Below, in pieces: positions 10,607 to 25,147 of a DNA stretch of 25,147 nt. Position numbers and translations under genes: made by a program. This DNA is from a virus, in IMG/VR virus record IMGVR_UViG_3300009155_000233, positions 1 through 25,147 of that record; one strand, given 5' to 3'. How positions within the stretch are numbered: position 1 is the first letter of the stretch; every line of letters starts with the position of its first letter. The notes under the pieces were generated by a model. It was not told the DNA's origin, ran no database searches, and saw nothing but the letters and a program-made list of their open reading frames with translations.

Positions 10607-12096
10607 GATGCGGCAATCTCCATGGCTATCAGCCAGATATTTGTACTGGTAAGTGTACTGCTGGCCGTAGATATTTTTTGCTGTAATTTATAAGTCATAG
10701 GGCTTGTGGTGCCTGGTGCATCCATGTAACTGTAAGATACTGCACCTGTTGCGCCTGCATCTGTGCCGCCTGTGCCTGATGTTCCGGTATTTTGAACTTG
10801 CAAACTTGTACTAGCGCCTCTAACCAATTGAGTATAAGAAGTAACACCAAACCCTGATACAGCAGTAAATTCACTGGTACCAGTGGCTATGATAAGAACT
10901 TTGCTGGTTGAACTTGATGGTGTAATTGTCACGTTTGCATAACTGATATCAGCATAACTAGTGCTGTTTGTTGTACTACCGCCCAGGCTTGAACTCATTA
11001 CTGTTTGTACCACAGCACCCAAGGGCATATTAGATGCGGGCAATCTATTGTTGGTATAGAGATTCTGTGTGTAGGTGTTGCGGAAATATACTGTGCTGGT
11101 ACCAATATCATAGGTAACATTTGCAACTGGTACCAAGGTGCCTGAAATTGCTACGTTGGCAACTACTCCGCCTGCAAAGGCAGGGCTAGTAGTATCTACC
11201 CAGTAGTTGCTTGTACCGTCATTTAGAAATTCATATAAAACATCATTGGCTGTATCATACCACTGGTCAGTTACTTTGGGTGCTGGACTGACTGGGGGTG
11301 CTGTGTTGGCAGTATATACTACTCCTGGAGGAACTGGCAGACCATTGGCGTAATAGTAATTGTTTGAAAGTATGTTACCGCCAGTGATATTGCCACTGGC
11401 ACTGACTGCTCCCGAAACGTATGCACCTGTGTTGGCCACAACTATCACATTGCCTGTGCCATTGACCCCCATGGTGATGTTGGCATTGGCTGTGGCAATA
11501 GTTACATTACTGGTACCATTGCTGATAAACGTAGTGTCTACACCAAACTCACCAACGTACCTGTAACCCACAACGTAGATTGTGTTGCCTGTTCCGGTAC
11601 CAATAGGAGTTGGTATGGTTGCGCCATTGAAGTTTAGTACCCCAGACTGATAGTCAAAGAACCAGGTGTCATCACTACCGGAACCGGCACCGAATAACTT
11701 GGTACCTGTCGTTTGGGGAGTACTTAACCCTGGGGCGCCAGCATACACTTGTACCAGGTAGTTGTCACCGAACTGTGTGGGTATCCAATTGGTTAAATTG
11801 GTTTTCCAGGTTTGATTGTCAGGTGCTGTTAGATCTTCAGTACATTGTATTGTGGGACTGTATCCAGCGCCGCCACCATCTTTGTATACCTGTACCAGTG
11901 ATGTGGTATTGGCAGGTGGTAGGGCAGGTATGTCTCCACTCTGTGTCCAAATAAGGTCGCCACGATACAGCAGTGGACTGGGTATGCTTTCGTTGAAGGC
12001 TTCTTTGGAAGCAGGCTCGGCCGTTTTGGTTACACCGTAGCCGACCTTTTTCCAAAGGTAGTCAATTTTTTGCGATTCGTTGAACGAGGCAGCCAT
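10603..12096 (-). CDS. Phage virion structural protein with fibre modules and C-terminal beta domain, 497 aa
   Basis: The N-terminal ~190 residues (MAASFNESQKIDYLWKKVGY, ESIPSPLLYRGDLIW, WIPTQFGDNYLVQVY, DDTWFFDYQSGVLNFNG, YVVGYRYVG) match a conserved structural protein family I know from marine T4-like phages; its exact place in the virion is not known to me. After it come an NGTSNVTI module, a short TGGNILSNNYYYANG element, and a WYDTANDVLYEFLND-YWVD module shared with the 2501-aa protein. The last ~145 residues carry SYADISYANVTITPSSSTSK, the hallmark of a beta-sandwich often found at phage fibre ends, so this could be a receptor-contacting tip. The start overlaps the 2563-aa gene by one base (TAATG), with AGGAG 10 nt ahead; the end overlaps the 218-aa gene (ATGA). 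Confidence 0.88.
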   Translation of the reverse strand: MAASFNESQKIDYLWKKVGYGVTKTAEPASKEAFNESIPSPLLYRGDLIWTQSGDIPALPPANTTSLVQVYKDGGGAGYSPTIQCTEDLTAPDNQTWKTNLTNWIPTQFGDNYLVQVYAGAPGLSTPQTTGTKLFGAGSGSDDTWFFDYQSGVLNFNGATIPTPIGTGTGNTIYVVGYRYVGEFGVDTTFISNGTSNVTIATANANITMGVNGTGNVIVVANTGAYVSGAVSASGNITGGNILSNNYYYANGLPVPPGVVYTANTAPPVSPAPKVTDQWYDTANDVLYEFLNDGTSNYWVDTTSPAFAGGVVANVAISGTLVPVANVTYDIGTSTVYFRNTYTQNLYTNNRLPASNMPLGAVVQTVMSSSLGGSTTNSTSYADISYANVTITPSSSTSKVLIIATGTSEFTAVSGFGVTSYTQLVRGASTSLQVQNTGTSGTGGTDAGATGAVSYSYMDAPGTTSPMTYKLQQKISTASSTLTSTNIWLIAMEIAAS

Positions 12097-15000
12097 TAAG
12101 TTGCTACTCCTATTGATAGTGCTGTAATGGACTGTCCAGATGCCAAGGCAATTCTAATTAAAATGTTGGTTCCAGTACTGTTGGCGGCGTTTTGAGATCC
12201 TAGGGTCATTGTGTATGCTACGTTGGCTATTGCTGTATTTAACGGTATCACGTCCGCACCGGTCAAGGCACATCCGTTTGAACCGTTGCCACCAGTTGCT
12301 ATTGCCGCACCAGGAACTCCTGATCCAGCATATTGAGTGAATGCTTCCAGCCATCCGTTGATGGTACTGGTGGGCCCTGGGAATCCCGGAGTAGGCGATG
12401 AGAATCCGCCGGAGTCAATTGTGGTTCCTGGCGCCGCAAGCCAAACACCTGCAACGCCTGTGGTTGTGGTCAATCTAATGTCAAAGTTGGCCAGACTTGG
12501 TCTTGCAAATGCAAAAGTAAAGTACTGTGTGCTGGTACGATTGCCACTGATTGACAAGTTCGGTCCCACTGGCAAATATCCTGTGCTCAAGTCAACTGCA
12601 TATCGTTGGAGTACCCCATACCGCACAACTGCTTCGGGCGTGTTAGCAATGGTTTGTGCCCCAGACCAGGCATTAGATGTATAGTAGTTTATGCTGTTGG
12701 CAAACACAGGAGTGTTACCTGCGGTGCTCATTACCACTCGTAAGGCCACCTGTGTGTTAGATGCCACATTGGCCACAATGGCCTGTTCATTTATGCCAGA
12801 GTTTGCACCAGCATACATCTGTATGTTAGCAGGTAATTGTACTGTGGTACTGGTTCCTATCACGTTGAATATATTGGCTTGCAACGTGGCCACTACGTTG
12901 TTGGCACCTGTTAAGTTACCGGTCATGTTGCCAAGTGTGTAGTTTGAAGCAACACCCACATTGGCATTCAAGTTTGAACCTGTCAGGAAACTGCTGGCGG
13001 CATTGTTGATTGTGCTGAGTGCTTTGGTCTGTGTTGCAGATACCAATGCGCCTGATCCTTCTAATACTGTTCCGCTGGCCAAAATAAACGGGTCAGCACT
13101 TCTAAATGTTTGCCCAGACAAGTTTGCCACTTCTAAATTGGCAATGGTAATTGTAGGCGATCCTGTGTTGTAGTAAGGAATGCCTGAAATATATCTGTAG
13201 GTTCCTGCTGTGGCTTCAACTACTGCTGTGTTGGCAGTGACTAGGCTGGGTGATGAATTCAAATTGTCCTTGACAAATCCCACATAGTTGGTGTTGCCTG
13301 TCACCGAGTCTACCAATTTGTAGTTGTTGTATCCTGTGCCCAAACTGCTCAAAGCACAACTGATATTGGCATTGAATACTTTGTAGAAATAACTTGGCAC
13401 CGCGGCATTGGCCACGTGCAAGTCTCGGTCTTGCGTTATAACCAAGGCCCCAGATGTTCCAACGGTGTTACTCACATTGCTAAATGTCACGTTGCCAGCA
13501 TTGGCATTGTTGACATAGGCAAACAAGTTGGCAGTCAACTGACTTGAACTTATTCCTGTGTTGGCGTTTACAATATTACCTGCGGTAGCAATTGTTGTTG
13601 TGGTTGCAAAACGTGTGACGCTTGTGCCATTGGCCACAATGTTACCACCCGATGCGTCTCTTGCGCCGGCTGCCAATAACGGACTGGTACCTTCGCTGGT
13701 GTTAACAATGGCCAAGTTGGAGAAGCCACTGAGGTTTGTGGGTGCTGTGGGGTTACTGGCAATAAAGATATAGCCAACATTAGAGATTGTATTGCTTTGT
13801 GCTGTACTGGTTATACCATTGGGTGTACCATTGGCTGTGAGAGACACTGTGAAAGCACCGGTGCTGTTGTAGGTATGAAGTGTGTTGGCCACATTTGATA
13901 CACCATTGCTGAATGTACTGTCGCCCCAGGACCAGTTGGCCAAGTTGCTGTTTTGACTGGTGTTCTGGAAGGTAAAGGTCGATCGATTGGAACTGTTGTA
14001 GTCAGTATACAGGTATCCCACTCTGGCATTGCCTGTGTTGGCAGTGGCATCTGTTACGACGTTGGCAGTGGTTCCAATATAGTTGGCACGAGTCTGTGGT
14101 TCAACTGTGATAGTGATGTTGCCACTCTTGGCTGGACTGGAACTGTAGCCAGTGTACAAGAACAAGTTGGCAGTGAACTGTTGATATGCATTGGCAGCCT
14201 GGTTGGCAGCACTTAGTGCAAACGTGTTAGTGACATTGGCAGCACTTGGGTTACCTGCAATGCCTGTGCCTACGTTGACGTTACCAACATTGCCATCACC
14301 GTAGTTAAAGTTATACAATTGTTGTGCGCCAAAACTGGCTGTGTTCCCTGGCGTGCCATTTGAGTCGTTGCGGAAACTTATCACCCCCAGGCCGTTGATC
14401 ACGTTGGCTCTGTTGGCAGTGACAAACACATTACCAGTTTGTGGTGCATAAACTTTGACATTGCTGGCAGACGAAACAACTGTGACATTACTAGGTCCGG
14501 CTGTGTTACTGGTTCCACTCAATATCACACTGTACAAACTGTCTGCATTGGCTGAAACAGAGTTGTACTGATGAGTCACATTGGTAAACGATGTATTGCC
14601 TAAGCCAGGTCCAGCAGTAAAGTTAGCAGTACCGTCGCCAAAACTCAAATCATACCAGACCACATACTGACTGGTGTTGGTTATGGTTATGATATTACCA
14701 GTATTGAAACTGTTGCTACTCAGAGTAAATGATGGTATTGGACTTGGAGTGTACAACACAATATTCGAAATGTTGGCAGTACTGGTAGAACCTTTGGCAC
14801 CATTGGCCGCATTGCCGTTATAGGTTCCGTTGGTGTTGTAGGCTGTGAAGGTTACTGTGTAAGTTCCGCCTGAAGCATTACTAAATGTGTGAGTGGCATT
14901 GGCTGTGGTGGCGTTGGCTGTGCCATCACCAAATTGCCACAAGAAACTGTTGGGATTACCAATATAATAACTGGTGAATGCCACCGTTAATGGACTAGGT

Positions 15001-18000
15001 CCAGAATAAACATTGGCGATGATATAAGCATTGCCCACGTATGTGCTGTTGGCAATGTTCAATGACACTTGATTTAGATCATCTAAGCCATCTGTAACAA
15101 AAGTTGCTGTGGTCCACCCAGGATATGCAACGTTGACTGTTAGGCTACCATCTGTAGGGGTTCCTAAAGTGATTGTGTTACCTTGACCGCCGGATGCAAT
15201 AACTCCAGTGAGTTGACTACCGTTACCAATAAAGAAATTACCAGAAACATTACCAGTTGCTGATACTAACCCACCTGTTAAGATGTTGCCGCCAGTGATG
15301 TTAGCAACACTTATAATATTACCTGTTGCTGATAATATACCACCGGTGAGTAAGTTACCACCTGTAATGTTGCCAGTTGAACTGATCAATCCACCGGTGT
15401 TTACATTTCCGCTGTTGACATTGCCTGTTAAACTTAGGCTTGTACCAGTTGCGGCACCAATGTTGGGTGTGGTTAAGTTAGCGCCGGCTTTGACAATAAT
15501 GTTGCCGGCGCCGTCGAATGCTGTGGTATTCTGATCAACCTTAGCATTAAATTGTGTACCTATTAGACTTAGACCGGCATCAACGTTGGCTGTGTAGGTT
15601 GTGGCTTGACTGAACAAAGCAAAAGAGATATTGCTTGTGCCAAATGTGATTGTGCCTGTTGGTTCGTTAACAACAAACGCTGAACCAGCATTGACATTAC
15701 CGTTTGTGGTAAAGAAGTAGTCGTTTAGGCTTAATTGTTCTGCACTGTTTGATCCATATTGGTCAGCGTCTGTAGAACGCACAATAGCAGTGGCATTGCT
15801 CCAGGTATACACACCATTGTATACTGCATTACCTTCGTTCTTGACCAAGATACGTGTACCAACTGTTTGAACGTTGGCAGTGTCAATTAAATTAAATGAT
15901 CCAGTGGTACTTAGGTAAGCACCAACACCATTACTCACACCATTGGGTTGAGCATACGTGATGGTACCACCTGTAGTTGCGGCCAATGTAGTTGTGGTGG
16001 CTGCATACGTTGGTGAGTGGAACGACAATCCCGTTGACACCATATTGTCAACATATAATTTTGTCGCGGCATCAGTATCTTGTTCTGGATATGCTACGCT
16101 ATTAATAAATGTATTGGCTAATACAATGTTGCCGGCTGGTTGTAGATTTAAATTACCCGAGGCAGTGCTGATGGTTAATGCACCACTAGTAGGACGAATG
16201 CTACTGGTGTTAACATTGCCGGCAATCACATTGCCTGTGACACTTGCAAATCCTGAAGCAAAAATATTGTTGCCTAAAATATTGCCTGTTGCTGTTAGAT
16301 ATCCAGTGGTAGATAATCCTATTGGTCCAGATAAAGTGCCGTCATTGTTAAATGTCCATTGATAAGATCCGCCTGCTGGTTTTACACTAATCTGATAGGC
16401 ACCAGTAATTGCTAGATCCGATGGATTGGTCTGGACAATATTGGCATTAGCAAATGCCAGTGTACCGCCTGTTATGTTTACATTGCCGCCAACAATATTG
16501 CCAGTAGATGATACAAGACCACCTGTAAGCAGATTACCACTAACTGTGTTTCCAACCACACTCACGTTGGCCAAGTTACCAACTTGTGTTAGACTTGAAT
16601 ATAAAACGTTTGAACTTAGTGTGTTACCAATCAATGCATTGGCATTTACACTAGATGCCGCGACACCTGTTAGTTGACTACCGTTACCAATAAAATAGTT
16701 GCCAGATATGTTACCAGTTGCTGAAACAACGCCACCAGTTAATAGATTACCAGCGGTGGCATTGCCAGTGGCAGAGATCAATCCACCTGTGAGTACATTG
16801 CCACCTGTAACGTTGCCACTTAAAGATGCTACCGATCCTAACAAACTAGAACCAGTGACTGTGCCAGTTGAACTTATCAATCCACTTGTAAGTAAGTTTC
16901 CACCAGTTACGTTACTACTTGCGCTCAATACACCAGTTACATAAGCACCTGTAGTAGCAAATACGGCTACGTTGCCTGTACCGCCTACACCAACAGAGAC
17001 ATTACCACCCGAACTGACCACAGTGACATTTGATGTTCCGTTGTTGATATTAGCAACACTGGTGATAACGCCAGTTAGTAACGCACCATTACCAAGAATA
17101 TAATTACCGGTTACGTTACCAGTTGCTGATAACACGCCGCCTGTGAGTATATTGCCACTTGTGACATTGCCTGTAACACTTAGATTGGCTAGATTACCAA
17201 CTTGAGTCAGACTTGAGTACAAGACATTTGAACTTAGTGTGTTACCAGTTAAGGCACTAGCACTCACGTCAGACGCAGTGACTCCGGTTAATTGACTACC
17301 ATTACCAATAAAGTAGTTGCCAGATATATTGGCGGTTGTTATTATAGGACCAGTCAGACTGACCAAGTTACCAGTATAAGTTGGCAAGTAGGCGGCCACA
17401 TCAGCGTTGCTGTATCCGGCTGGTAAACCTGTAATAAATGCGCCATTACCAAGCAAGTACGTGCCAGTAACATTGCCTGTTGCACTTACTTCACCAATGA
17501 TATACGCACCAGTGTTGGCAAATGTTGCAACATTGCTTACACCTGCAGAACTTATTGTTATAGCACCATTGGCAGCCACAATAACATTGCTGTTGCCGTT
17601 TAAGATTGAAGTGCCGGCACTGACTGTGATACCAGTCAGTTGAGATCCATTACCAAAGAAATACCCGCCAGTGACATTTCCGGCTGTGAGTAGATTTCCA
17701 CCAGTGATATTGCCACTGGCGCTGAGAGACGCGGCACCAAATGTACCTGAGATAGCCACATTGCCTGCTGAAACATTACCTGTAACTGACAACGAAGAGC
17801 CAATAAGATTATTGCCATAAACATTGCCAATAGCCGATACAATACTATCAACATTGATATTACCGGCATGAACATTACCGGTATCTACATTACCGCCTGT
17901 GATGTTGCCAGTGGCAGTGATTGATCCAGTGGTAACAAAATTACCACCTTGTATTGTTCCAGTAGCACTAACAATGTAAGATGTTACACTGCCGCCAGGT

Positions 18001-19787
18001 GCATTTAAATTACTACCTCGAATATTGCCCGAGGCTGACACTTGACCACTGGTTGTGATATTGCCGCCAACTACATTGGCGATGGCTGTGACTGTGGTTC
18101 CTGTAACCGTTGAACCAATTAAATTGTTGCCTGTTATATTACCGGCAGCAGAAATTGTTGTATTAACTGTGACTGTGTTAGCATTGACTCTGCCAGCATC
18201 AACATTACCGCCAGTGATGTTACCTGTGGCTGATATCTGTCCTGCGGTCAGTAAATTGCCACCGGTAATGTTGGATGTGGTTGTGACTGGCCCGGTGAGA
18301 CTGACCAAGTTACCGGTGTATGTGGGCAAGAAGGCTGCTACATTGGCATTGCTATAATTTCCTGCTGGAAGATTGGTAAGTTGGCTACCATCACCGATGA
18401 AATATGCGCTGGTTGTAACATTGCCTGTGGCACTTACTGGTCCGCTTACTGTTACATTACCAGCATTGACTCTACCAGTATCAACATTGCCGCCGGTGAT
18501 GTTGCCAACGATAGAAATGTTTCCACCGACGATATTGGCAGTGGTACGCAACAAGCCAGTCATGCTTGACATGCTACCGGTGTATGTGGGCAAGAAGGCT
18601 GCTACATTGGCATTGCTATAATTGCCAACGGGCAAATTTGTGAGTTGGCTACCATCACCGATGAAATATGCGCTGGTAGAGATATTTGCCACTGCTGATA
18701 CTGAGCCACTTGCGGCAATGTTGCTGGCATTAACTTTTCCAGTGTCAAGATTAGCGGCAGTAATATTGCCCGAGGCTAATATTGTACCCGATGTTCGTAA
18801 ATTACCACCGGTGACATTGGCAGTGGTAGTAACTGGCCCTGTTAGACTGACCAAGTTACCGGTGTATGTGGGCAAGAAGGCTGCTACATTGGCATTACCA
18901 TAGTTGGCATTGATACCTGTGAGTAAACTACCATCGCCAATAAAATAACTGCTGGTAGAGATATTACCAATTGCACTTATAGTTGTGCCAACAGTGACGT
19001 AACCTGCGTTCAATCTACCGGTGTTGACATTACCACCTGTAATGTTGCCAGTGGCTGATATCTGTCCGGCTGTGCGTAAGTTGCCGCCGGTGACATTAGC
19101 AGTGGTTGTGACCGGTCCTGTTAGACTAACTAGATTGCCCGTGTATGTGGGCAAGAAAGCCGCCACATTACTATTGCCGTACCCAATGTTGATGCCAGTT
19201 AATAAAGCACCATTACCTAAAATATAATTGCCAGAGATGTTGCCTGTTGCGCTGACTTCGCCTGCAACATACGCACCGGTATTAGCAAACGTTACAACAT
19301 TGCTAGTGCCATTGACTGTGACAAAAATGTTTGACCCTGCTGAGGGTATGAGAATGTTACTTGTGCCGTTTACAACTTCACTACCAGTAGTAGCCACAAT
19401 GCCAGTGAGTTGACTACCATTACCGATAAAATAACCGGCTGTGATATTACCTGTAGTTGTGATACCACCTGTGGTATTGATACCGCCAATACCTAAATAG
19501 ATAGAATTGAAACGCAAACTGGGCGTGCCAATGTCGTAAACATTGTCCAGCCTAGGAAATAAAGTATTATTAAACTGTACTCGTCCAATACCCGACGGGC
19601 TTAGAATTAAATTGCTATTGAGTACTGTGGTGGTAATAGTATTATTACCAATTTGAATGTTACTAAGAACTGGCCCAGCCGCGAAAATCTGATTAAAGTT
19701 TTCGTTGGTATAATCAAACGCGGTCCGTAACGGATCACCTTGCCCGTCATCGGGTACCGCGCCAATGTCAATGATGTACTGTGCCAT
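12096..19787 (-). CDS. Giant phage fibre/adhesin protein with PKD-like domains, 2563 aa
   Basis: The N-terminus (MAQYIIDIGAVPDDGQGDPL, then RTAFDYTNENFNQIF) is a typical opening of marine phage structural proteins. Next: VYDIGTPSLRFNSIYLG, then a shaft with eleven Y(F/I)xG(N/D)G..(L/I)T(G/N) elements and several copies of NVAAFLPTYTGNL (about 90-820); further TGGNLLTGGLISATG repeats; the AATKLYVDN/RILVKNEGNAVYNGVY module (about 1190-1455); four PKD-like segments (about 1590-1990) marked by WQFGDGT, LSFGDGT, FNYGDGN and WSWGDST; an unrecognised beta-rich stretch; and a C-terminal domain (about 2420-2563) with QYFTFAFARPSLANFDIRL and VAGVWLAAPGT, which I recognise from large cyanophage structural proteins. 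No catalytic motif is seen. The start has only a weak Shine-Dalgarno; a late-promoter-like box lies 20 nt upstream. It heads a coupled run with the 497- and 218-aa genes. Probable role: a long virion fibre that binds host glycans or surface proteins. Confidence 0.9.
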   Translation of the reverse strand: MAQYIIDIGAVPDDGQGDPLRTAFDYTNENFNQIFAAGPVLSNIQIGNNTITTTVLNSNLILSPSGIGRVQFNNTLFPRLDNVYDIGTPSLRFNSIYLGIGGINTTGGITTTGNITAGYFIGNGSQLTGIVATTGSEVVNGTSNILIPSAGSNIFVTVNGTSNVVTFANTGAYVAGEVSATGNISGNYILGNGALLTGINIGYGNSNVAAFLPTYTGNLVSLTGPVTTTANVTGGNLRTAGQISATGNITGGNVNTGRLNAGYVTVGTTISAIGNISTSSYFIGDGSLLTGINANYGNANVAAFLPTYTGNLVSLTGPVTTTANVTGGNLRTSGTILASGNITAANLDTGKVNASNIAASGSVSAVANISTSAYFIGDGSQLTNLPVGNYSNANVAAFLPTYTGSMSSMTGLLRTTANIVGGNISIVGNITGGNVDTGRVNAGNVTVSGPVSATGNVTTSAYFIGDGSQLTNLPAGNYSNANVAAFLPTYTGNLVSLTGPVTTTSNITGGNLLTAGQISATGNITGGNVDAGRVNANTVTVNTTISAAGNITGNNLIGSTVTGTTVTAIANVVGGNITTSGQVSASGNIRGSNLNAPGGSVTSYIVSATGTIQGGNFVTTGSITATGNITGGNVDTGNVHAGNINVDSIVSAIGNVYGNNLIGSSLSVTGNVSAGNVAISGTFGAASLSASGNITGGNLLTAGNVTGGYFFGNGSQLTGITVSAGTSILNGNSNVIVAANGAITISSAGVSNVATFANTGAYIIGEVSATGNVTGTYLLGNGAFITGLPAGYSNADVAAYLPTYTGNLVSLTGPIITTANISGNYFIGNGSQLTGVTASDVSASALTGNTLSSNVLYSSLTQVGNLANLSVTGNVTSGNILTGGVLSATGNVTGNYILGNGALLTGVITSVANINNGTSNVTVVSSGGNVSVGVGGTGNVAVFATTGAYVTGVLSASSNVTGGNLLTSGLISSTGTVTGSSLLGSVASLSGNVTGGNVLTGGLISATGNATAGNLLTGGVVSATGNISGNYFIGNGSQLTGVAASSVNANALIGNTLSSNVLYSSLTQVGNLANVSVVGNTVSGNLLTGGLVSSTGNIVGGNVNITGGTLAFANANIVQTNPSDLAITGAYQISVKPAGGSYQWTFNNDGTLSGPIGLSTTGYLTATGNILGNNIFASGFASVTGNVIAGNVNTSSIRPTSGALTISTASGNLNLQPAGNIVLANTFINSVAYPEQDTDAATKLYVDNMVSTGLSFHSPTYAATTTTLAATTGGTITYAQPNGVSNGVGAYLSTTGSFNLIDTANVQTVGTRILVKNEGNAVYNGVYTWSNATAIVRSTDADQYGSNSAEQLSLNDYFFTTNGNVNAGSAFVVNEPTGTITFGTSNISFALFSQATTYTANVDAGLSLIGTQFNAKVDQNTTAFDGAGNIIVKAGANLTTPNIGAATGTSLSLTGNVNSGNVNTGGLISSTGNITGGNLLTGGILSATGNIISVANITGGNILTGGLVSATGNVSGNFFIGNGSQLTGVIASGGQGNTITLGTPTDGSLTVNVAYPGWTTATFVTDGLDDLNQVSLNIANSTYVGNAYIIANVYSGPSPLTVAFTSYYIGNPNSFLWQFGDGTANATTANATHTFSNASGGTYTVTFTAYNTNGTYNGNAANGAKGSTSTANISNIVLYTPSPIPSFTLSSNSFNTGNIITITNTSQYVVWYDLSFGDGTANFTAGPGLGNTSFTNVTHQYNSVSANADSLYSVILSGTSNTAGPSNVTVVSSASNVKVYAPQTGNVFVTANRANVINGLGVISFRNDSNGTPGNTASFGAQQLYNFNYGDGNVGNVNVGTGIAGNPSAANVTNTFALSAANQAANAYQQFTANLFLYTGYSSSPAKSGNITITVEPQTRANYIGTTANVVTDATANTGNARVGYLYTDYNSSNRSTFTFQNTSQNSNLANWSWGDSTFSNGVSNVANTLHTYNSTGAFTVSLTANGTPNGITSTAQSNTISNVGYIFIASNPTAPTNLSGFSNLAIVNTSEGTSPLLAAGARDASGGNIVANGTSVTRFATTTTIATAGNIVNANTGISSSQLTANLFAYVNNANAGNVTFSNVSNTVGTSGALVITQDRDLHVANAAVPSYFYKVFNANISCALSSLGTGYNNYKLVDSVTGNTNYVGFVKDNLNSSPSLVTANTAVVEATAGTYRYISGIPYYNTGSPTITIANLEVANLSGQTFRSADPFILASGTVLEGSGALVSATQTKALSTINNAASSFLTGSNLNANVGVASNYTLGNMTGNLTGANNVVATLQANIFNVIGTSTTVQLPANIQMYAGANSGINEQAIVANVASNTQVALRVVMSTAGNTPVFANSINYYTSNAWSGAQTIANTPEAVVRYGVLQRYAVDLSTGYLPVGPNLSISGNRTSTQYFTFAFARPSLANFDIRLTTTTGVAGVWLAAPGTTIDSGGFSSPTPGFPGPTSTINGWLEAFTQYAGSGVPGAAIATGGNGSNGCALTGADVIPLNTAIANVAYTMTLGSQNAANSTGTNILIRIALASGQSITALSIGVAT
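13810..15010 (-). repeat. Four PKD-like domain segments in the 2563-aa protein
   Basis: Each segment has the PKD hallmark, a (W/F/Y)-x-(F/W/Y)-G-D-(G/S) turn. The first, second and fourth are clearest and are followed by a T(Y/F)..(G)xYTVTLTA-like strand. Segment 1: SFLWQFGDGT then THTFSNASGGTYTVTFTAYN. Segment 2: WYDLSFGDGT then THQYNSVSANADSLYSVILS. Segment 3: LYNFNYGDGN. Segment 4: LANWSWGDST then HTYNSTGAFTVSLTANG. The DNA copies are clearly diverged. Confidence 0.72.
15426..16216. repeat. Inter-gene shared module, copy in the 2563-aa gene (pairs with about 6404-7200)
   Basis: Homologous to 6404-7200 in the 2501-aa gene at an offset of 9022 nt, falling to about 9016 nt after a two-codon indel. 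Shared protein parts include AATKLYVDN, GTITYAQPNG, AYLSTTGSFNLIDTANVQTV, LNDYFFTTNGNVNAG and ANLTTPNIGAATGTSL. Confidence 0.8.
17345..19210 (-). repeat. Tandem ~270-nt coding repeat (NVAAFLPTYTGNL units)
   Basis: The N-terminal shaft of the 2563-aa gene holds tandem units, each with Y(F/I)(I/L)G(D/N)G, LT(G/N), Y(S/G)N(A/S)NVAAFLPTYTGN, LVSLTGPVTTTANV and TGGN parts. The plus-strand mark GTATGTGGGCAAGAA recurs at 18317, 18582, 18864 and 19143, giving steps of 265, 282 and 279 nt. A more diverged copy lies near 17370. Some stretches of 30-45 nt are identical between copies, making this a good substrate for unequal recombination. Confidence 0.85.
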
Positions 19788-19846: not shown

Positions 19847-20434
19847 TCAAAGGTCTTGACCGGTATTCACACGATCTTGAAACAGTTGCATTGGTATGTG
19901 TAGTAGATTGTTAAAGACTTTTAACTCTCTTATGTCTGCTGTGGTTGTACCACACACACGTACAAACGTTATTTGCGGGAAATCTTGAGCAATTGTACAC
20001 AATTGTTTGACCCAGTTTCCTGTGTAGGTAGGTGCGGCATCAGGTTTCTTGTAAAAATCCGTACCAGCATACACATTGTTGAACTTTTGATTCACCGTAG
20101 GACCCAGATCAAATCCCAACAGATAGATAGTTTTGTGCCCATCTAGTGCCGCAAGAGCGGTGGCTATAGGTCCCGAACTGTTGCTGTGATACTTTTTGGG
20201 CACAGGTAATGCACCAAGTCCGGTTACGGGTTTGCGAGTATAAAATCTGTGATTTTTGCTATAGCCAGAATTTTGTATACTTTCTGCGATGGGTCGATCT
20301 GTGGCTACAAGACAATCGGGTTCAAAATCTCTGTAGAGTCCGTTACAGCCGTAGATCTTGCCCAATGGTCTTAATTGATTTAAATCCACGGCTTGTCGAC
20401 TGATGCCGTTGCCACATACAAATGCTAGGGTCAT
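19847..20434 (-). CDS. Sialyltransferase-like/DUF115-like Rossmann-fold protein, 195 aa
   Basis: The chain starts with a strand and a glycine turn, MTLAFVCGNGISR (GNG at 8-10), then IYGCNGLYRDFEPDCLVATD (27-46), SSGPIATALAALDG (86-99), IYLLGFDL (103-110) and NNVYAGTDFY (119-128). The order GNG...S, CN..Y, SG...A..A, IYL.G.D resembles bacterial GT42 sialyltransferases of the CstII kind and the related MptE/DUF115 fold. Proteins with the same GNG-SR and YGCN-LYRDF-PD pattern occur in marine T4-like phages as hypotheticals. At 195 residues it is shorter than GT42 enzymes (about 260-290), so activity is uncertain. A strong AAGGAGG ribosome-binding site lies 7 nt before the ATG, but inside a hairpin (20435-20466). 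It lies between a virion gene and the giant fibre gene. A nucleotide-sugar-binding role is inferred, not shown. Confidence 0.8.
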   Translation of the reverse strand: MTLAFVCGNGISRQAVDLNQLRPLGKIYGCNGLYRDFEPDCLVATDRPIAESIQNSGYSKNHRFYTRKPVTGLGALPVPKKYHSNSSGPIATALAALDGHKTIYLLGFDLGPTVNQKFNNVYAGTDFYKKPDAAPTYTGNWVKQLCTIAQDFPQITFVRVCGTTTADIRELKVFNNLLHIPMQLFQDRVNTGQDL

Positions 20435-20466
20435 AAAAAATCCTCCTTGTAGTTAGCAAGGAGGAT
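20435..20466 (-). terminator. Terminator-like hairpin that contains the ribosome-binding site of the 195-aa gene
   Basis: On the minus strand, ATCCTCCTTG (20466-20457), a 7-nt loop and CAAGGAGGAT (20449-20440) form a perfect 10-bp stem. Six T residues (20440-20435, the first closing the stem) and then the ATG at 20434 follow directly. It thus has the form of an intrinsic terminator for the 278-aa gene upstream (stop at 20483). The 3' arm carries the AAGGAGG Shine-Dalgarno (20448-20442) of the next gene, and the 5' arm is its perfect anti-Shine-Dalgarno. Both termination and translational masking are plausible. Confidence 0.7.
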
Positions 20467-20482
20467 GTTGGGAGGTTACAAA

Positions 20483-21319
20483 TTAACTTGTAACGTTTAC
20501 CACTTGAGCCAACTGTAAAGAACCGTTGTTTGCGTCCACACCGTTGATAATCTCTGCACCAGACCATGTGACTGTACCTTCGTCTGTGAAGAAGTTGGTT
20601 ACATAGAAGTTTTCACTTGAGTAGATGTTTTCACCAGTGTTGTTGTTGCTATAGTTGCCATAAGTCATGCCGTTCCAGTCACGGATCCACTTGTTGGTGA
20701 TGTAACTAGCGTACACCGCGGCTGAGTCGCCTACTGAGTATTCAATACTCATGTAACCGGCTGTTAGTGCGCCTACGGCTGCATTTTCCAAAATGCAAAT
20801 TCCAACTGGATATGCAGTACCTGATCCTGACCCAACTGCTACCGCAGTAAAGATATCGCCAGCGGCTGCGTTGACACCAGCACCACATGCCTGCCAGTCT
20901 GTTGTACCAACAACAGCAATTTGATATGCCTGTCCGATAATTAAACTTTCATCAGCAGTGGTACTGGCTGTGTAAGCAACCAAGAACTTATGCGCACCTT
21001 TCTGACGAATAAGACGACCAATTCCGCCAGTTGTGCTTGTTCCATCTGCTAACAAAATGTTTACCGCAGCCGAAACCTCTGGAAATGTAGTACTAGGAGT
21101 ACTAGTAGCAGGTGAGCCGCCAACCACGCCCACAAACTGATCTGAATTAAGAGTGTCTGCTGAGTTATATGGTGTTGCTGGTGAAGTCAAACTACCAAAG
21201 TTTGGAAAGCCAGCATCAGTTAAGATGGTTTGGTTGTAGGTTGTGACCTCAGGATTAGAACCAGTAACTGTACTACCGGAACCAACGTTGTTTTTTTGAA
21301 TTTTAAGTGCTCTTCCCAT
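20483..21319 (-). CDS. Putative phage virion structural protein, 278 aa
   Basis: It opens MGRALKIQKNNVGSGS, followed by GFPNFGSL, FVGVVGG (about 63-69), IGRLIRQKGAHKFLV (about 99-113), a Gly/Ala-rich central part, then YASYITNKWIRDWNG and NFYVTNFFTDEGTVTW. The M(G/A)RALKI opening, the VGVVGG turn and the I.RQKG..KFLV strand are familiar from a conserved structural protein of marine T4-like phages with no assigned position. No signal peptide, transmembrane helix or catalytic motif is present; it looks like a beta-rich, soluble virion part. The ATG follows TAAGGAG with about 8 nt spacing. A candidate late promoter lies about 92 nt upstream, and a terminator-like hairpin begins 17 nt after its stop, so it may be a single-gene transcript made in large amounts. 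A head or tail decoration role is a guess. Confidence 0.8.
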   Translation of the reverse strand: MGRALKIQKNNVGSGSTVTGSNPEVTTYNQTILTDAGFPNFGSLTSPATPYNSADTLNSDQFVGVVGGSPATSTPSTTFPEVSAAVNILLADGTSTTGGIGRLIRQKGAHKFLVAYTASTTADESLIIGQAYQIAVVGTTDWQACGAGVNAAAGDIFTAVAVGSGSGTAYPVGICILENAAVGALTAGYMSIEYSVGDSAAVYASYITNKWIRDWNGMTYGNYSNNNTGENIYSSENFYVTNFFTDEGTVTWSGAEIINGVDANNGSLQLAQVVNVTS

Positions 21320-21402
21320 TTGATTTCTCCTTATAGAAGCCCTATGCCGGTTCTATCGGCTACGCGGTGGGTATTAATCGCCGCATAAAACGCCAAATTG
21401 CG

Positions 21403-21432
21403 TTGACAAGTATTTATGGAAAACGGTTTTAT
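21403..21432 (+). promoter_or_regulatory. Candidate sigma-70 promoter for the plus-strand glycosyltransferase
   Basis: A perfect TTGACA (21403-21408), an 18-nt spacer and TTTTAT (21427-21432, four of six consensus bases) lie ahead of the only plus-strand gene. Start of transcription would fall near 21439, before the ATG at 21467 but after the ATG at 21416. The box overlaps the minus-strand late-promoter candidate at 21411-21418. The -10 is weak. Confidence 0.4.
21411..21418 (-). promoter_or_regulatory. Candidate T4-type late promoter box (CATAAATA)
   Basis: The minus strand reads CATAAATA, one mismatch from TATAAATA, about 92 nt before the ATG of the 278-aa structural gene. It lies in the intergenic region between divergent genes, where a promoter is needed. 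It sits within the spacer of the plus-strand promoter candidate. Confidence 0.45.
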
Positions 21433-21466
21433 TTTACCCGGCATGGCGGTTTTCTTAAATATCTTC

Positions 21467-22624
21467 ATGAACACAAACGACTTGATTGCCAGTGGTAACC
21501 TGGCCAGAGAACAACACAAACCCGAACAGGCCATTGCATTTTATGCACAAGCATTTGTGCAAGACCCCAACAGTTCAGGCGCATTTAACAACTACGGCAA
21601 TGTGCTGAGAGAAATGGGGCATACACAACGTGCTATTCCTTTTTTAGAAACTGCACGATTATTAGATCCTTCCAGCATTACCGCAGAATTCAATCTAGCA
21701 GTGGCGCATCTCATGCTGGGCAACTATGAACAGGGTTGGCGGTTATATGAGAGTCGTTGGCGTTACGAACACCTAGATGGTACCAAACCCAAACTACCTG
21801 CTCCAGAATGGTCTGGCGAAGACTTACGTGGCAAAACTATCCTGGTCATTGGCGAACAAGGTCTTGGAGATCAAATTCAGTTTTTGAGATTCTGTGGCAA
21901 TCTCCAAGACATGGGTGCAAAGATTAGACTGCATGTGAGTCCAGGAATCAAACCTTTGATAGTCAATACTCCTCCGGCAATTTTAGAAGTAACCTGCAAT
22001 ACAGAAGATGTAATTGGTCCGTTTGATTACTGGGTTGCTATGATGAGCCTGCCTAGACTTTTAAACATGCGATTAGAACATGTGCAACACTATTTACAAT
22101 ACGTACAGCCTGATTCAGAACGTGTCAAAGTATGGGCCGAGAGACTAGGTATTCCAAAAAATCGCATGAGAGTTGGAGTTGCTTGGTCGGGTCGCAAAGA
22201 TTCATGGATCAACCAACACAAGAGTATGCCAGCAGAAACCATGGCTGCACTTGTAAAAAAGTTTCCTGAACACCAATGGGTTAGTTTGCAAGTAGATGCC
22301 AGTGCGGAAGACGAAGCAGTGGTAAAGGCAGCAGGAGTTGAGTGTTACCCAGGAACTATCAAAGACTTTGCTGACACAGCCGCATTGATGCATCATTTGG
22401 ATCTTGTGATCTCTGTAGACACTGCCGCCGCACACTTGGCAGGTGCAATGGGTCGCCCGTTATGGATTCCACTCAATGCTTATGGTCCTTGCTGGCGCTG
22501 GATGCAGAATCGTGATGATTCGCCTTGGTATACCACTGCCCGATTGTTCCGTCAGGAAAAGTATGGAGATTGGTCAGCACCCATGGCCAAAATTGAAAAG
22601 TTTTTAGGCTGGTTTAAGATTTAA
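21467..22624 (+). CDS. TPR-repeat protein with GT9-like glycosyltransferase domain, 385 aa
   Basis: Residues 5-98 form about three TPR helix pairs (GNLAREQHKPEQAIAFYAQA, NNYGNVLREMGHTQRAIPF, FNLAVAHLMLGNYEQGWRLY). After PEWSGEDLRGKT the catalytic-type domain begins: ILVIGEQGLGDQIQFLRF (125-142), GVAWSGRKDS, then DLVISVDTAAAHLAGAMG (312-329) and DSPWYTTARLFRQ. This is the heptosyltransferase-like (GT9) arrangement seen in bacterial TPR glycosyltransferases, which move a sugar from a nucleotide donor to protein or envelope acceptors. The TPR array is short compared with many bacterial relatives. The ATG at 21467 is preferred over the one at 21416, because the TPR begins there and the promoter candidate lies between them; no clear Shine-Dalgarno is visible for either. 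It is the only plus-strand gene and overlaps the tail of the convergent gene by 21 nt. Its acceptor is unknown. Confidence 0.88.
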   Translation: MNTNDLIASGNLAREQHKPEQAIAFYAQAFVQDPNSSGAFNNYGNVLREMGHTQRAIPFLETARLLDPSSITAEFNLAVAHLMLGNYEQGWRLYESRWRYEHLDGTKPKLPAPEWSGEDLRGKTILVIGEQGLGDQIQFLRFCGNLQDMGAKIRLHVSPGIKPLIVNTPPAILEVTCNTEDVIGPFDYWVAMMSLPRLLNMRLEHVQHYLQYVQPDSERVKVWAERLGIPKNRMRVGVAWSGRKDSWINQHKSMPAETMAALVKKFPEHQWVSLQVDASAEDEAVVKAAGVECYPGTIKDFADTAALMHHLDLVISVDTAAAHLAGAMGRPLWIPLNAYGPCWRWMQNRDDSPWYTTARLFRQEKYGDWSAPMAKIEKFLGWFKI

Positions 22625-23680
22625 ATATTGTTTAATTGCATTAGCAATAGGACCAAAACGCCATTGCTGATCTTTTACTAATCTACGATTGTGTTCAACT
22701 GCTGATTGCATTTCTATACAGACTTGTTGGCGTTGCAGATCATTTAATTTTGCAAATTGATCAACTGTGTCAACCATAGCGCCAATGCGTTTCTTGGTAT
22801 CTGTCACAAGATCGTAACTTTCGTCTAGCCAAGGCGAAAATGTTTGAAATCCTAAATCACGCAAGGATTGCAGGTATCCTACACAACCCAATACCACAAA
22901 AGGATGCCCTACCAGCAACGGTCGGGTAATTTTTTCGCTAATAAAAAACGTACCCGACGCGGCTTCAGTTTCAGCAACAATACTGATATAGGCCGAGTTG
23001 TAAATATTTCTAGGAATCAGTTGACTGATCCATGCATGTTGTCCTGGTTTTGAATCTGGCAACGGACGACATGTGTTTATTGTTTTGTCTAAATTATCAA
23101 ATGCAAATTTTAAAAATACAGAATCATCTAATTGATCCAACTCTGGGGTTCTATAATTAAAAGCACTTTCTGGATATTGTGATTTATATTGTTGTCTCTC
23201 TTGCTCATTGAATTGTGATCGATCAAAATAGTTTACCAAGCATTTTTCTAATAGACCACGTGCATTCATTTCATGTATTAATAGTCCTCGATTTGATAAC
23301 CAACCTCCGAGCAATGCTGTAGCCAACCAGGGCTTATATCCTAGTTCTACCGCTGATATAAAGGGATTTAAATGTACTGTTGATGTTAAATTAGCCCAAT
23401 ACAAGATACAGTGTTTCAATTGCCAAGACTTGCGGCTCTTAGAGAATCCACTTACTGCCCATACAGCATTAGGTTTAGCGGCTATTTGTTTTTGATATTC
23501 CTTATCCGCCCAGAGTACTGGGTCGGGTTGTATAAAAATAGTAAGTCGATTCGAGTATTCAACACTTTCTGGACACAAAGTTGGTAGTACATCAATCTCA
23601 GCCTCAGTTGATTTTAAAAATTCAGGAAACGATTCAAACAGTTCAGGAACTAAATCGTATGGATCATTAACCAATATCAT
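22604..23680 (-). CDS. Glycosyltransferase-like protein (GT10-like C-terminal motif), 358 aa
   Basis: The telling stretch is AYISIVAETEA (230-240), then FFISEKITRPLLVGHPFVVL (245-264) and LRDLGFQTF...DESYD (273-290). A Glu, then (S/T)EK, then a Leu, a Gly and a (P)xVVxG turn is the donor-site pattern of GT10 alpha-fucosyltransferases (classically VTEK...AL..G.VPVV.G). I therefore read it as a GT-B-type glycosyltransferase or a degenerate relative. The N-terminal half (ILVNDPYDLVPELFESFPEF, WAVSGFSKSRKSW) is not recognised and would be the acceptor side. The start overlaps the stop of the 341-aa gene (ATGA) with no clear Shine-Dalgarno, so translation is probably coupled. Sampled lines of this gene are AT-richer than the fibre genes (about 33% GC against about 43%), which fits separate acquisition. 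Substrate unknown. Confidence 0.75.
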   Translation of the reverse strand: MILVNDPYDLVPELFESFPEFLKSTEAEIDVLPTLCPESVEYSNRLTIFIQPDPVLWADKEYQKQIAAKPNAVWAVSGFSKSRKSWQLKHCILYWANLTSTVHLNPFISAVELGYKPWLATALLGGWLSNRGLLIHEMNARGLLEKCLVNYFDRSQFNEQERQQYKSQYPESAFNYRTPELDQLDDSVFLKFAFDNLDKTINTCRPLPDSKPGQHAWISQLIPRNIYNSAYISIVAETEAASGTFFISEKITRPLLVGHPFVVLGCVGYLQSLRDLGFQTFSPWLDESYDLVTDTKKRIGAMVDTVDQFAKLNDLQRQQVCIEMQSAVEHNRRLVKDQQWRFGPIANAIKQYLNLKPA

Positions 23681-24702
23681 ACTGTTTCTAAATGTATTTG
23701 TAATTTTTCAACTGCAGGTTGTGCTAGTTTTTTTGCAAAACTCTTACTGTTTACTAAAGTTTGATTGTAATCAATCATATCACGCTGTTGATTATATAAA
23801 TTTTCAATATCGTTTCTCTGAAATAATTCAACAATTTTTTCGCATTTGAGTTTAGGTGGCTGAGCAGTATCGTATTCTTTCCAAATTTCAATGCCAAGAT
23901 TTTCTAATGCAGTTGGCATATCTTGTATTCCATAGTTAACAACCAAACATCCTGATCTATAGGCTTTCCACGTTTTTTCGCTGGGCAAAACTTGTGTGCC
24001 ATGCCCTAACGTTTCTCCTGTGATGTTAATACATGCTGTGTAAGCAGGATGTTTATTTCCGGCTTGATCGTGTGCCGCCGCGCATGACTGATCAGTATCA
24101 AAATATTCTAATCTATTTGACCAGGGTATTTCACCTAGCCATTGGTTGAAACCAGCAACTGTATTTGTTGGCAAAGAGTTCCAAAAATTTGATTGACTAA
24201 AACTGTTCACTACTACAACATCATTATCTCTAACCCAAGGTTTAATTTGTCTAAACAATAGTAATCTGTGATATCTAGGAATTCCTGATAAAAAACTTAT
24301 TCGACGAGTCTTAGTCTGGCCTGTTTGCATATTTTTGTGCAAGTGTTGATTAATTAACCAAGACGGCCAGGGTGCAAGATTTGATCTTGTGCTTTGCTCT
24401 GATCTGATATCAGGACTAAACACAAAAAAAATTTTAGGGTCTACGTGTTTTTCTAATTCGGTTAGATATGTTTCAACATTGTAAGGATTGCTATCCAAAC
24501 ACAAAACTGGCATACGCCCAGTTTGACTTTGGCATCTGTAGATAAGTTCAGCATCGTGTGACACATCCATTTGATTGATTTTTAATGAATTGTCAGACAC
24601 AAACGTCAAATGTCTAGCCAGAAGTCCTTGCTCTATATAATCAAAATGATTTCTATGACTTTGATTATAAACACAATTAATATCCCAATAATTTTCCAGC
24701 AT
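23677..24702 (-). CDS. Glycosyltransferase-like protein, distant paralogue of its neighbour, 341 aa
   Basis: The C-terminal half carries TACINITGET (222-231), LPSEKTWKAYRSGCLVVNYG (239-258) and ALENLGIEIW (265-274). This repeats the layout of the next gene (x-x-ET, SEK, G, VxxG, then LG(I/F)), so the two are probably distant relatives of GT10-like GT-B enzymes. The middle has RRISFLSGIPRYHRLLLF (133-150), a strand and basic helix as found at the start of the C-terminal lobe in such enzymes. The N-terminal part is not recognised. No membrane segment or signal peptide is seen, so it should act in the cytoplasm. The ATG follows the gp23 terminator by about 18 nt; its Shine-Dalgarno is weak (AAGTAG). 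No good promoter box is visible, so read-through from gp23 may drive it. A sampled line has about 37% GC. Function beyond likely sugar transfer is not known. Confidence 0.72.
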   Translation of the reverse strand: MLENYWDINCVYNQSHRNHFDYIEQGLLARHLTFVSDNSLKINQMDVSHDAELIYRCQSQTGRMPVLCLDSNPYNVETYLTELEKHVDPKIFFVFSPDIRSEQSTRSNLAPWPSWLINQHLHKNMQTGQTKTRRISFLSGIPRYHRLLLFRQIKPWVRDNDVVVVNSFSQSNFWNSLPTNTVAGFNQWLGEIPWSNRLEYFDTDQSCAAAHDQAGNKHPAYTACINITGETLGHGTQVLPSEKTWKAYRSGCLVVNYGIQDMPTALENLGIEIWKEYDTAQPPKLKCEKIVELFQRNDIENLYNQQRDMIDYNQTLVNSKSFAKKLAQPAVEKLQIHLETV

Positions 24703-24719
24703 GATCTACTTAGCCAACA

Positions 24720-24743
24720 AAAAAGGCTCCGAAGAGCCTTTTT
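24720..24743 (-). terminator. Intrinsic terminator after the major capsid gene
   Basis: On the minus strand, AAAAAGGCTC, the loop TTCG and GAGCCTTTTT form a perfect 10-bp stem closed by a stable UUCG tetraloop; the T run extends one base further. It begins 39 nt after the capsid stop and ends about 17 nt before the next ATG. A small GAGAAA/TTTCTC inverted repeat (24763-24779) lies between. UUCG-loop terminators are usual behind highly expressed T4-type genes. The A-run on the other side could also let it stop plus-strand transcripts. Confidence 0.88.
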
Positions 24744-24782: not shown

Positions 24783-25147
24783 TTAGGAGAATGACAAGTT
24801 AGATACAGCGATCTCACCAACATAGTCACCAGCATTGCCGAATGAACTGGCAGTGTTGGTTAACTCGATGAAGCCATAACGTGTCATGAAAGACACAACT
24901 GGTTCAAAGGTTGTTGGATCCAACACAACACCACTTGACATCAAAGGAATGTATGGGCAGTAGAATGCTGGAGCGTCTGCTTCGCTTGAACCTTTGTAGC
25001 CAACCAACACAGGAGTTGTGTCACTAGCATAAGAGTCAACGAACACACGCATAGCGCCGTTCAATGTACCAACAAACTTGGTGTTTGTAGGTGCTTCGAA
25101 TGTACCTTCTGTAGTACGTGCAAAAGCAGAAGTAGTTGCAGATTGCA
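24783..25147 (-). CDS. 23: Major capsid protein, T4 gp23-like, C-terminal 120 residues (open at right edge)
   Basis: The frame is open to the window edge, so only the C-terminus is seen; the true start lies outside. Key parts are KFVGTLNGAMRVFVDSYA (23-40 of the visible part), VLVGYKGSSEADAPAFYCPY (46-65), IPLMSSG, TFEPVVSFMTRYGF (79-92) and a closing GEIAVSNLSF. T4 gp23 ends with the same succession (VYxDxYA, VGYKG..E.DAG.(Y/F)Y.PY, FQPV.GF.TRYG), so this is the coat subunit of a T4-like head. T4 gp23 has 521 residues, so about a quarter is visible. A TTG codon at 25064 inside the conserved LNGAMRVFV strand is not a start. Placing gp23 next to glycosyltransferase genes rather than gp24-type or other head genes is unlike T4. 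Confidence 0.93.
   Translation of the reverse strand, partial: QSATTSAFARTTEGTFEAPTNTKFVGTLNGAMRVFVDSYASDTTPVLVGYKGSSEADAPAFYCPYIPLMSSGVVLDPTTFEPVVSFMTRYGFIELTNTASSFGNAGDYVGEIAVSNLSFS

Follow-up and report, generated by a model that had tools for sequence, protein, structure and literature searches.

The stretch of DNA analysed here (hereafter the window) is an entire IMG/VR virus record, IMGVR_UViG_3300009155_000233, of 25,147 bases, and belongs to a lineage of uncultured freshwater phages with T4-type gp23 capsids, in which related contigs reach a length of 364 kb. It carries four glycosyltransferase (GT)-like genes between the major capsid gene, gp23, and a block of fibre genes. Two of these, encoding a TPR-GT9 protein and a 195-aa Maf/GT42-like protein, flank a virion-like gene that we call STR278. 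Down the minus strand the order is gp23, GT10-like b, GT10-like a, TPR-GT9 (on the opposite strand), STR278, the GT42-like gene and the fibre genes, which run from 19787 down to the contig start over more than 19 kb. A first-pass annotation of the window had given this order and these coordinates correctly; the strand of TPR-GT9, opposite to that of the other genes, is a correction to it. The frames of 195–402 aa are conserved in dozens of contigs and thus are not chance open reading frames (ORFs). The features are listed below with their evidence.

24783–25145, minus strand: gp23 major capsid protein, C-terminal 120 aa, at the contig end (Pfam Gp23, E 1.6e-30; PHROG major head protein, 7e-29)
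24720–24743, no strand assigned: intrinsic terminator-like hairpin 3' of gp23 (sequence)
23677–24702, minus strand: GT10-like protein b (GT10b), 341 aa, probable accessory cargo in the slot behind gp23 (73% identity to L001–L004; E230, E242 and K243 kept; link through L097)
22604–23680, minus strand: GT10-like protein a (GT10a), 358 aa, probable accessory cargo in the same slot (64% identity to L005–L007; FUT-like C-terminal domain; hhalign)
21467–22624 (longest ORF from 21416), plus strand: TPR + GT9 glycosyltransferase, 385 aa from the conserved start (Pfam; motifs)
21410–21418, minus strand: T4-type late promoter CATAAATAC of STR278 (motif at a fixed distance in relatives)
21317–21405, minus strand: freshwater-2 RNA (Rfam RF02980), 5' leader of STR278 (covariance model)
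20483–21319, minus strand: STR278, virion-like protein, 278 aa, starting MGRALKIQK (conservation in relatives)
20435–20466, minus strand: terminator-like hairpin with a U tract touching the ATG of the GT42-like gene (covariation)
19847–20434, minus strand: minimal Maf/GT42-like protein, 195 aa (model fold, profile comparison, invariant residues)
12096–19787, minus strand: giant fibre gene, 2563 aa, rich in Ser, Thr, Asn and Gly, candidate acceptor (S+T 24%, N+G 26%)

Two GT-like genes flank STR278 as a conserved core

The neighbourhood survey covered 85 contigs, the window and 84 relatives, which had been gathered by the window's own proteins, so that the presence of a query itself is biased and that of the other genes is not. 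TPR-GT9 lies antisense to STR278 in all 65 contigs that have both, no more than 800 nt away in 62. Downstream of STR278, the GT42-like gene has the same orientation in 77 of 77 contigs and is at most 120 nt away in 72. The two genes thus flank STR278 in nearly all relatives and constitute a conserved core. In 52 of 53 contigs gp23 is no further than 3 kb from TPR-GT9, and of the 46 contigs with room for a fibre-like ORF, 38 have the start of one in the next 5 kb downstream (27 of them immediately). This pattern holds after near-identical contigs are collapsed to 44 (fibres, 19/25). The linkage to the capsid and fibre region seen in the window is therefore kept in relatives; the core pair is tied more closely to STR278 than to a particular fibre type.

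The four genes had also been proposed to form one cassette. On the survey we reject this, the GT10-like genes being accessory and TPR-GT9 always antisense to STR278; the loss of the GT42 catalytic His from the 195-aa protein (see below) also speaks against it. In the L093 locus, where TPR-GT9 was not found, a tRNA gene (8913–8986, minus strand) stands in its place.

STR278 itself gave no database match; it is conserved in relatives, adjoining TPR-GT9 and the GT42-like gene, and its position and composition suggest a role in the virion. The lineage's late promoter is nTAAATAC, and in 11 of 13 anchored leaders ATAAATAC lies at a fixed distance, 91–98 nt upstream of STR278, the promoter taking the form NATAAATA in 30 of 42. 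The leader in the window scores 68 bits with the covariance model of RF02980, for which the gathering cut-off is 49.9, and the freshwater-2 RNA was present in all 16 related loci scanned, the gene behind it lying beyond the contig end in L102. What is new here is that an orphan Rfam RNA, freshwater-2, is the leader of STR278 behind a conserved late promoter.

TPR-GT9 and its bacterial homologues

Each of the four proteins has a GT-like sequence or fold, as the first-pass annotation had supposed, and for TPR-GT9 the assignment is secure at the level of sequence. Its TPR and GT9 parts both exceed the Pfam cut-offs (Glyco_transf_9, 30.1 bits against a cut-off of 22; TPR_2, 6.2e-10), and the motifs GEQGxGDxIQF and SVDTA..H are invariant or nearly so among 43 distinct sequences with 45–100% identity to the window protein. 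The N-terminal GxGD and the C-terminal DTxxxH, which from heptosyltransferases we take to be donor-site motifs, are intact. Such residues are kept here and apparently also in the GT10-like core, and so have not been lost from all four proteins. Conservation sets in at the Met at 21467, which is the likelier start; the longest ORF has its ATG at 21416, overlapping the late promoter that STR278 has on the opposite strand.

A comparable architecture is found in FlmG of Caulobacter, a TPR-linked flagellin O-glycosyltransferase with a protein acceptor (PMC7591256). Both proteins have an N-terminal TPR and a C-terminal GT-B domain, and FlmG is soluble and acts in a cytoplasmic pathway (PMC7591256); FlmG, however, has 596 residues and flagellin as its acceptor, whereas the phage protein has 385 and is of GT9 type. 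In seven Rhizobiales loci (L195, L208, L219, L221, L226, L245 and L254), annotated by eye, TPR-GT9 homologues have giant repeat proteins rich in Ser, Thr, Gly and Asn as neighbours, together with type I secretion-like genes. A GT4-like gene is present as well, and the whole looks like an adhesin glycosylation/secretion locus. These loci offer a second, independent setting in which TPR-GT9 has a neighbour of the type seen in the phage. A simple motif search, possibly too narrow, revealed no flagellin neighbours of bacterial TPR-GT9 in 80 loci.

The 195-aa protein resembles the core domain of Maf

The 195-aa protein was modelled confidently (pLDDT 94.6), and its best fold match is the Maf flagellin glycosyltransferase 5mu5 (Z 13.0 over 165 residues, root-mean-square deviation 3.3), followed by CstII 1ro7 (Z 10.7). 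Maf proteins (PMC4065374, PMC11339370) differ from it in that the phage protein corresponds to the core domain only and that genes for nonulosonate synthesis and cytidine monophosphate (CMP) transfer were not found in 16 related contigs. By sequence the matches are weak (PHROG sialyltransferase, 1.4e-4). The PF01973 (Maf/DUF115) profile reached at best E 0.015 among 45 members and did not match the window protein, and Foldseek alone, at E 0.001, found nothing in the PDB for this model or for that of GT10a, a negative that holds for the families listed there. When the family was compared by hhalign with bacterial CST-I, represented by two bacterial proteins from a scan of the order of a Polynucleobacter genome, the match was collinear over the whole length (probability 91, P 1.2e-7). 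The motifs GNGxS, CN and SSG...YLxGxD, common to the phage protein and CstI/CstII (GT42), are in register, and 36 residues are invariant among 45 sequences. The phage protein is shorter than CstI/CstII, and the GT42 catalytic His, as placed in CstII, aligns with residue 137, a Tyr in 38 and a Phe in 7 of the 45 sequences according to the alignment. Because this position is Tyr or Phe in all 45, we label the protein GT42/Maf-like and not a proven GT42 enzyme; of the GT42/DUF115-like assignment made at first, the fold is upheld and the catalytic His is missing.

The same replacement could mean that the 195-aa protein is no GT and instead either is a nucleotide-binding or pyrophosphokinase-like (MptE-type) enzyme, or helps to assemble the virion without being catalytic. 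Its size of just 195 aa, weak MptE-like Pfam matches in seven family members and a fold match to HPPK of M. jannaschii (Z 9.6) point in that direction. Pyrophosphokinases as a whole score Z 8–9.6, however, below Maf at the top and GT42 next to it, the invariant residues, many of them in predicted nucleotide-site motifs, suggest an enzyme, and the gene lies among GT genes; we consider the proposal unlikely. A distant GT42-like homologue occurs between UvsY and UvsW in Pelagibacter phage HTVC008M (L104, 9001–9831), in whose genome there are three similar places.

A hairpin at the start of the GT42-like gene

A hairpin with a U tract ends directly at the ATG of the GT42-like gene, and its 3' arm holds the Shine-Dalgarno sequence (SD). 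In 28 sequences, 96.4% of cells are paired over the 10 pairs of the stem, compared with 45–58% in slid controls, and two-sided changes occur on 7 of the 10 pairs (44 cells, versus 13.8 in shuffles). The loop keeps TAnnTAC, which is exactly TAAATAC in some members and a degenerate promoter match in most, so that it resembles the late promoter nTAAATAC in sequence. In the L001 group, which has lost the GT42-like gene, the stem is kept and the loop is changed. Each of the larger contigs searched with the hairpin model had a single copy, at the GT42-like gene; the hairpin is not a general genome element.

Hairpins of this kind precede the T4 genes e, soc, 49 and I-TevI. There, too, a stable stem has the SD in its 3' arm and the hairpin includes a late-promoter-like sequence, and late transcripts start within the hairpin and so escape it (PMC3014915, PMC2988022). 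The present hairpin differs from those of T4 in that the U tract touches the ATG, the loop promoter match is degenerate in most members and the gene is GT-like. Since the U tract abuts the ATG, the hairpin also looks like a terminator. By analogy with T4, late transcription may start inside the hairpin here as well, and the hairpin would then control the GT42-like gene in this lineage.

The GT10-like pair is probably accessory cargo behind gp23

For the two proteins first annotated as GT10-like, the evidence is moderate, not strong. None of 51 GT10-like members matched a Pfam GT family, Glyco_transf_10 included. The core (E, SEK/TEK, G) nevertheless fell in register with bacterial proteins that are above the Glyco_transf_10 cut-off (probability 71, P 3.7e-5; GT9 and GT4 controls, probability <3), and of the GT10 donor motif EN...(Y)xTEK...G the E, E and K are kept in the pair, the N of EN being T. 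The GT10a model is good in the C-terminal domain and has pLDDT <50 in the N-terminal part; FUT11 leads its fold matches at Z 10.5, followed by FUT9 at 9.9, and further GT-B structures score 8–9.8. Along the E...(S/T)EK...G core the pair can be aligned with GT10 alpha-1,3-fucosyltransferases; it differs from them in lacking the Pfam match, and the N-terminal half of GT10a was poorly modelled. Sequence and model together support a GT-B fold well, and GT10-like is the most fitting label, with moderate support. The kinship of GT10a and GT10b rests on L097 and not on their direct profile comparison, which is weak (probability 2.8).

Phage GTs often modify DNA, and T4 beta-glucosyltransferase turns up among the GT-B structures matched by the GT10a model (Z 9.4), which would fit glycosylation of modified bases by these enzymes. 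We regard such DNA hypermodification as very improbable, because GT10 structures outrank that enzyme, the TPR and Maf-like features suit protein acceptors, and the genes are in a virion module.

GT10a was found in 4 contigs and GT10b in 7; one or both occur in 10 of 85, and both only in the window. No relatives of GT10a, GT10b, STR278 or the L102 GT10-like protein were detected in 50,697 GenBank phage records. In many other contigs the slot behind gp23 holds SegE-type GIY-YIG or HNH endonucleases with NUMOD3 motifs, and in the L001 group GT10b is next to a homing endonuclease there; in T4, segD adjoins gene 23 (PMC2988022). As GT10a and GT10b occur in few contigs and the slot holds homing endonucleases in many others, they are best read as accessory cargo; the lineage has many further genes of this GT10-like kind, with 14 matches in one 364-kb contig. 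In L043 and L096 the interval between gp23 and STR278 has grown to 5.7–6.2 kb and contains additional genes that look fibre-like or otherwise structural.

Sugar supply in relatives

A DegT aminotransferase gene is present in 8 of 16 contigs. The three DegT clusters examined have it near tandem GT10-like genes, a NAD-epimerase/dehydratase-like and a carbamoyltransferase-like gene, with radical SAM confirmed in G003, which suggests a cluster of nucleotide-sugar type. In L170, L171, L172 and L174, radical SAM, carbamoyltransferase, epimerase, DegT, amidinotransferase-like and tandem GT10-like genes are together in one cluster. NeuB and CTP_transf_3 were not found in the 16 contigs, which may be partial (positive controls were run). 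This argues against an own nonulosonate donor supply, and a CMP-sugar donor would have to be supplied by the host.

Discussion

Our best reading of the site, held tentatively and at somewhat less than an even chance, is glycosylation of virion proteins with a putative acceptor and donor. Acting in the host cytoplasm, the TPR-GT9 and Maf/GT42-like proteins would put sugar onto a virion protein that is repetitive and rich in Ser, Thr and Asn, namely the giant fibres, STR278 or both. Much like FlmG with flagellin, TPR-GT9 would hold this protein through its TPR domain and attach the first sugar, and the Maf-like protein would add a further sugar or a cap, with the GT10-like proteins as optional add-ons, exchanged behind gp23, that vary the glycan. 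The Maf-like gene would be held down by the terminator/SD hairpin and probably freed late from the promoter-like sequence in its loop. In this scheme the enzyme activities, acceptor, donor and order of steps are all presumptive. We favour it because a TPR domain is fused to an intact GT9 site here and TPR-linked GTs such as FlmG have protein acceptors, the core pair brackets STR278 next to gp23 and the fibres in nearly all relatives, relatives carry the cluster of nucleotide-sugar type, the nearest fold of the 195-aa protein is the protein O-glycosyltransferase Maf (PMC4065374), none of the four GT-like proteins has a membrane-like segment (maximal 19-residue Kyte-Doolittle mean ≤1.55), and the Rhizobiales loci pair the same kind of enzyme with repeat proteins. 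Of the original idea of a virion glycosylation cassette, the glycosylation is thus plausible, helped by the bacterial neighbourhoods, and the single four-gene unit is not upheld. Glycoproteins were detected in virions of the jumbo phage XacN1 (PMC5852040). Extended to the whole lineage, as protein O-glycosylation with TPR-GT9 as initiator, a single-domain Maf-like transferase, the fibres or STR278 as substrate, timing by the hairpin promoter and a GT10-like swap slot, the proposal is doubtful.

Several observations weigh against virion glycosylation. Besides the replaced catalytic His and the missing NeuB and CTP_transf_3, TPR-GT9 is encoded opposite to the late genes and would not simply be co-expressed with the fibres; the GT42-like gene is kept across differing downstream gene sets, is absent from the L001 group although fibres are still there, and in HTVC008M lies beside UvsY/UvsW, away from fibres. 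GT9 enzymes classically build the lipopolysaccharide (LPS) core, and in the main rival reading the enzymes may instead remodel the LPS or capsule of the host, for superinfection exclusion or for keeping progeny from binding debris, in which case the place beside the fibres would mark a glycan/receptor module. The large glyco clusters of cyanophages have been interpreted in this way (PMC7824862), an antisense TPR-GT9 could be expressed early, and relatives carry up to 14 GT10-like genes (the 364-kb contig) as well as the DegT and epimerase genes. The TPR fusion and the Maf-like fold, however, indicate that the acceptors are proteins, among the neighbours of the enzymes we saw no membrane or Gtr-like gene, and bacterial TPR-GT9 accompanies giant repeat proteins in the seven Rhizobiales loci, so that we consider remodelling of the host surface somewhat doubtful.

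To our knowledge, glycosylation of phage virions has rarely been demonstrated. Phage-encoded glycosylation itself is already known, and new here are the hairpin with the GT42-like gene, the conserved core module and the freshwater-2 context. In jumbo phages, phage-encoded GTs are also core or clustered genes, and the gp23/TPR-GT9/STR278/Maf-like arrangement is not described in the portions of that glycan literature compared (PMC7824862, PMC12619734, PMC5852040). A fixed GT-like pair in a widespread freshwater lineage, together with a repeat-rich candidate acceptor, offers concrete enzyme-substrate pairs, and a poorly understood transferase family would gain a compact model in the minimal Maf-like domain. 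The freshwater-2 RNA gains a home gene in STR278, behind a late promoter, and the slot behind gene 23 is one in which cargo alternates with homing endonucleases.

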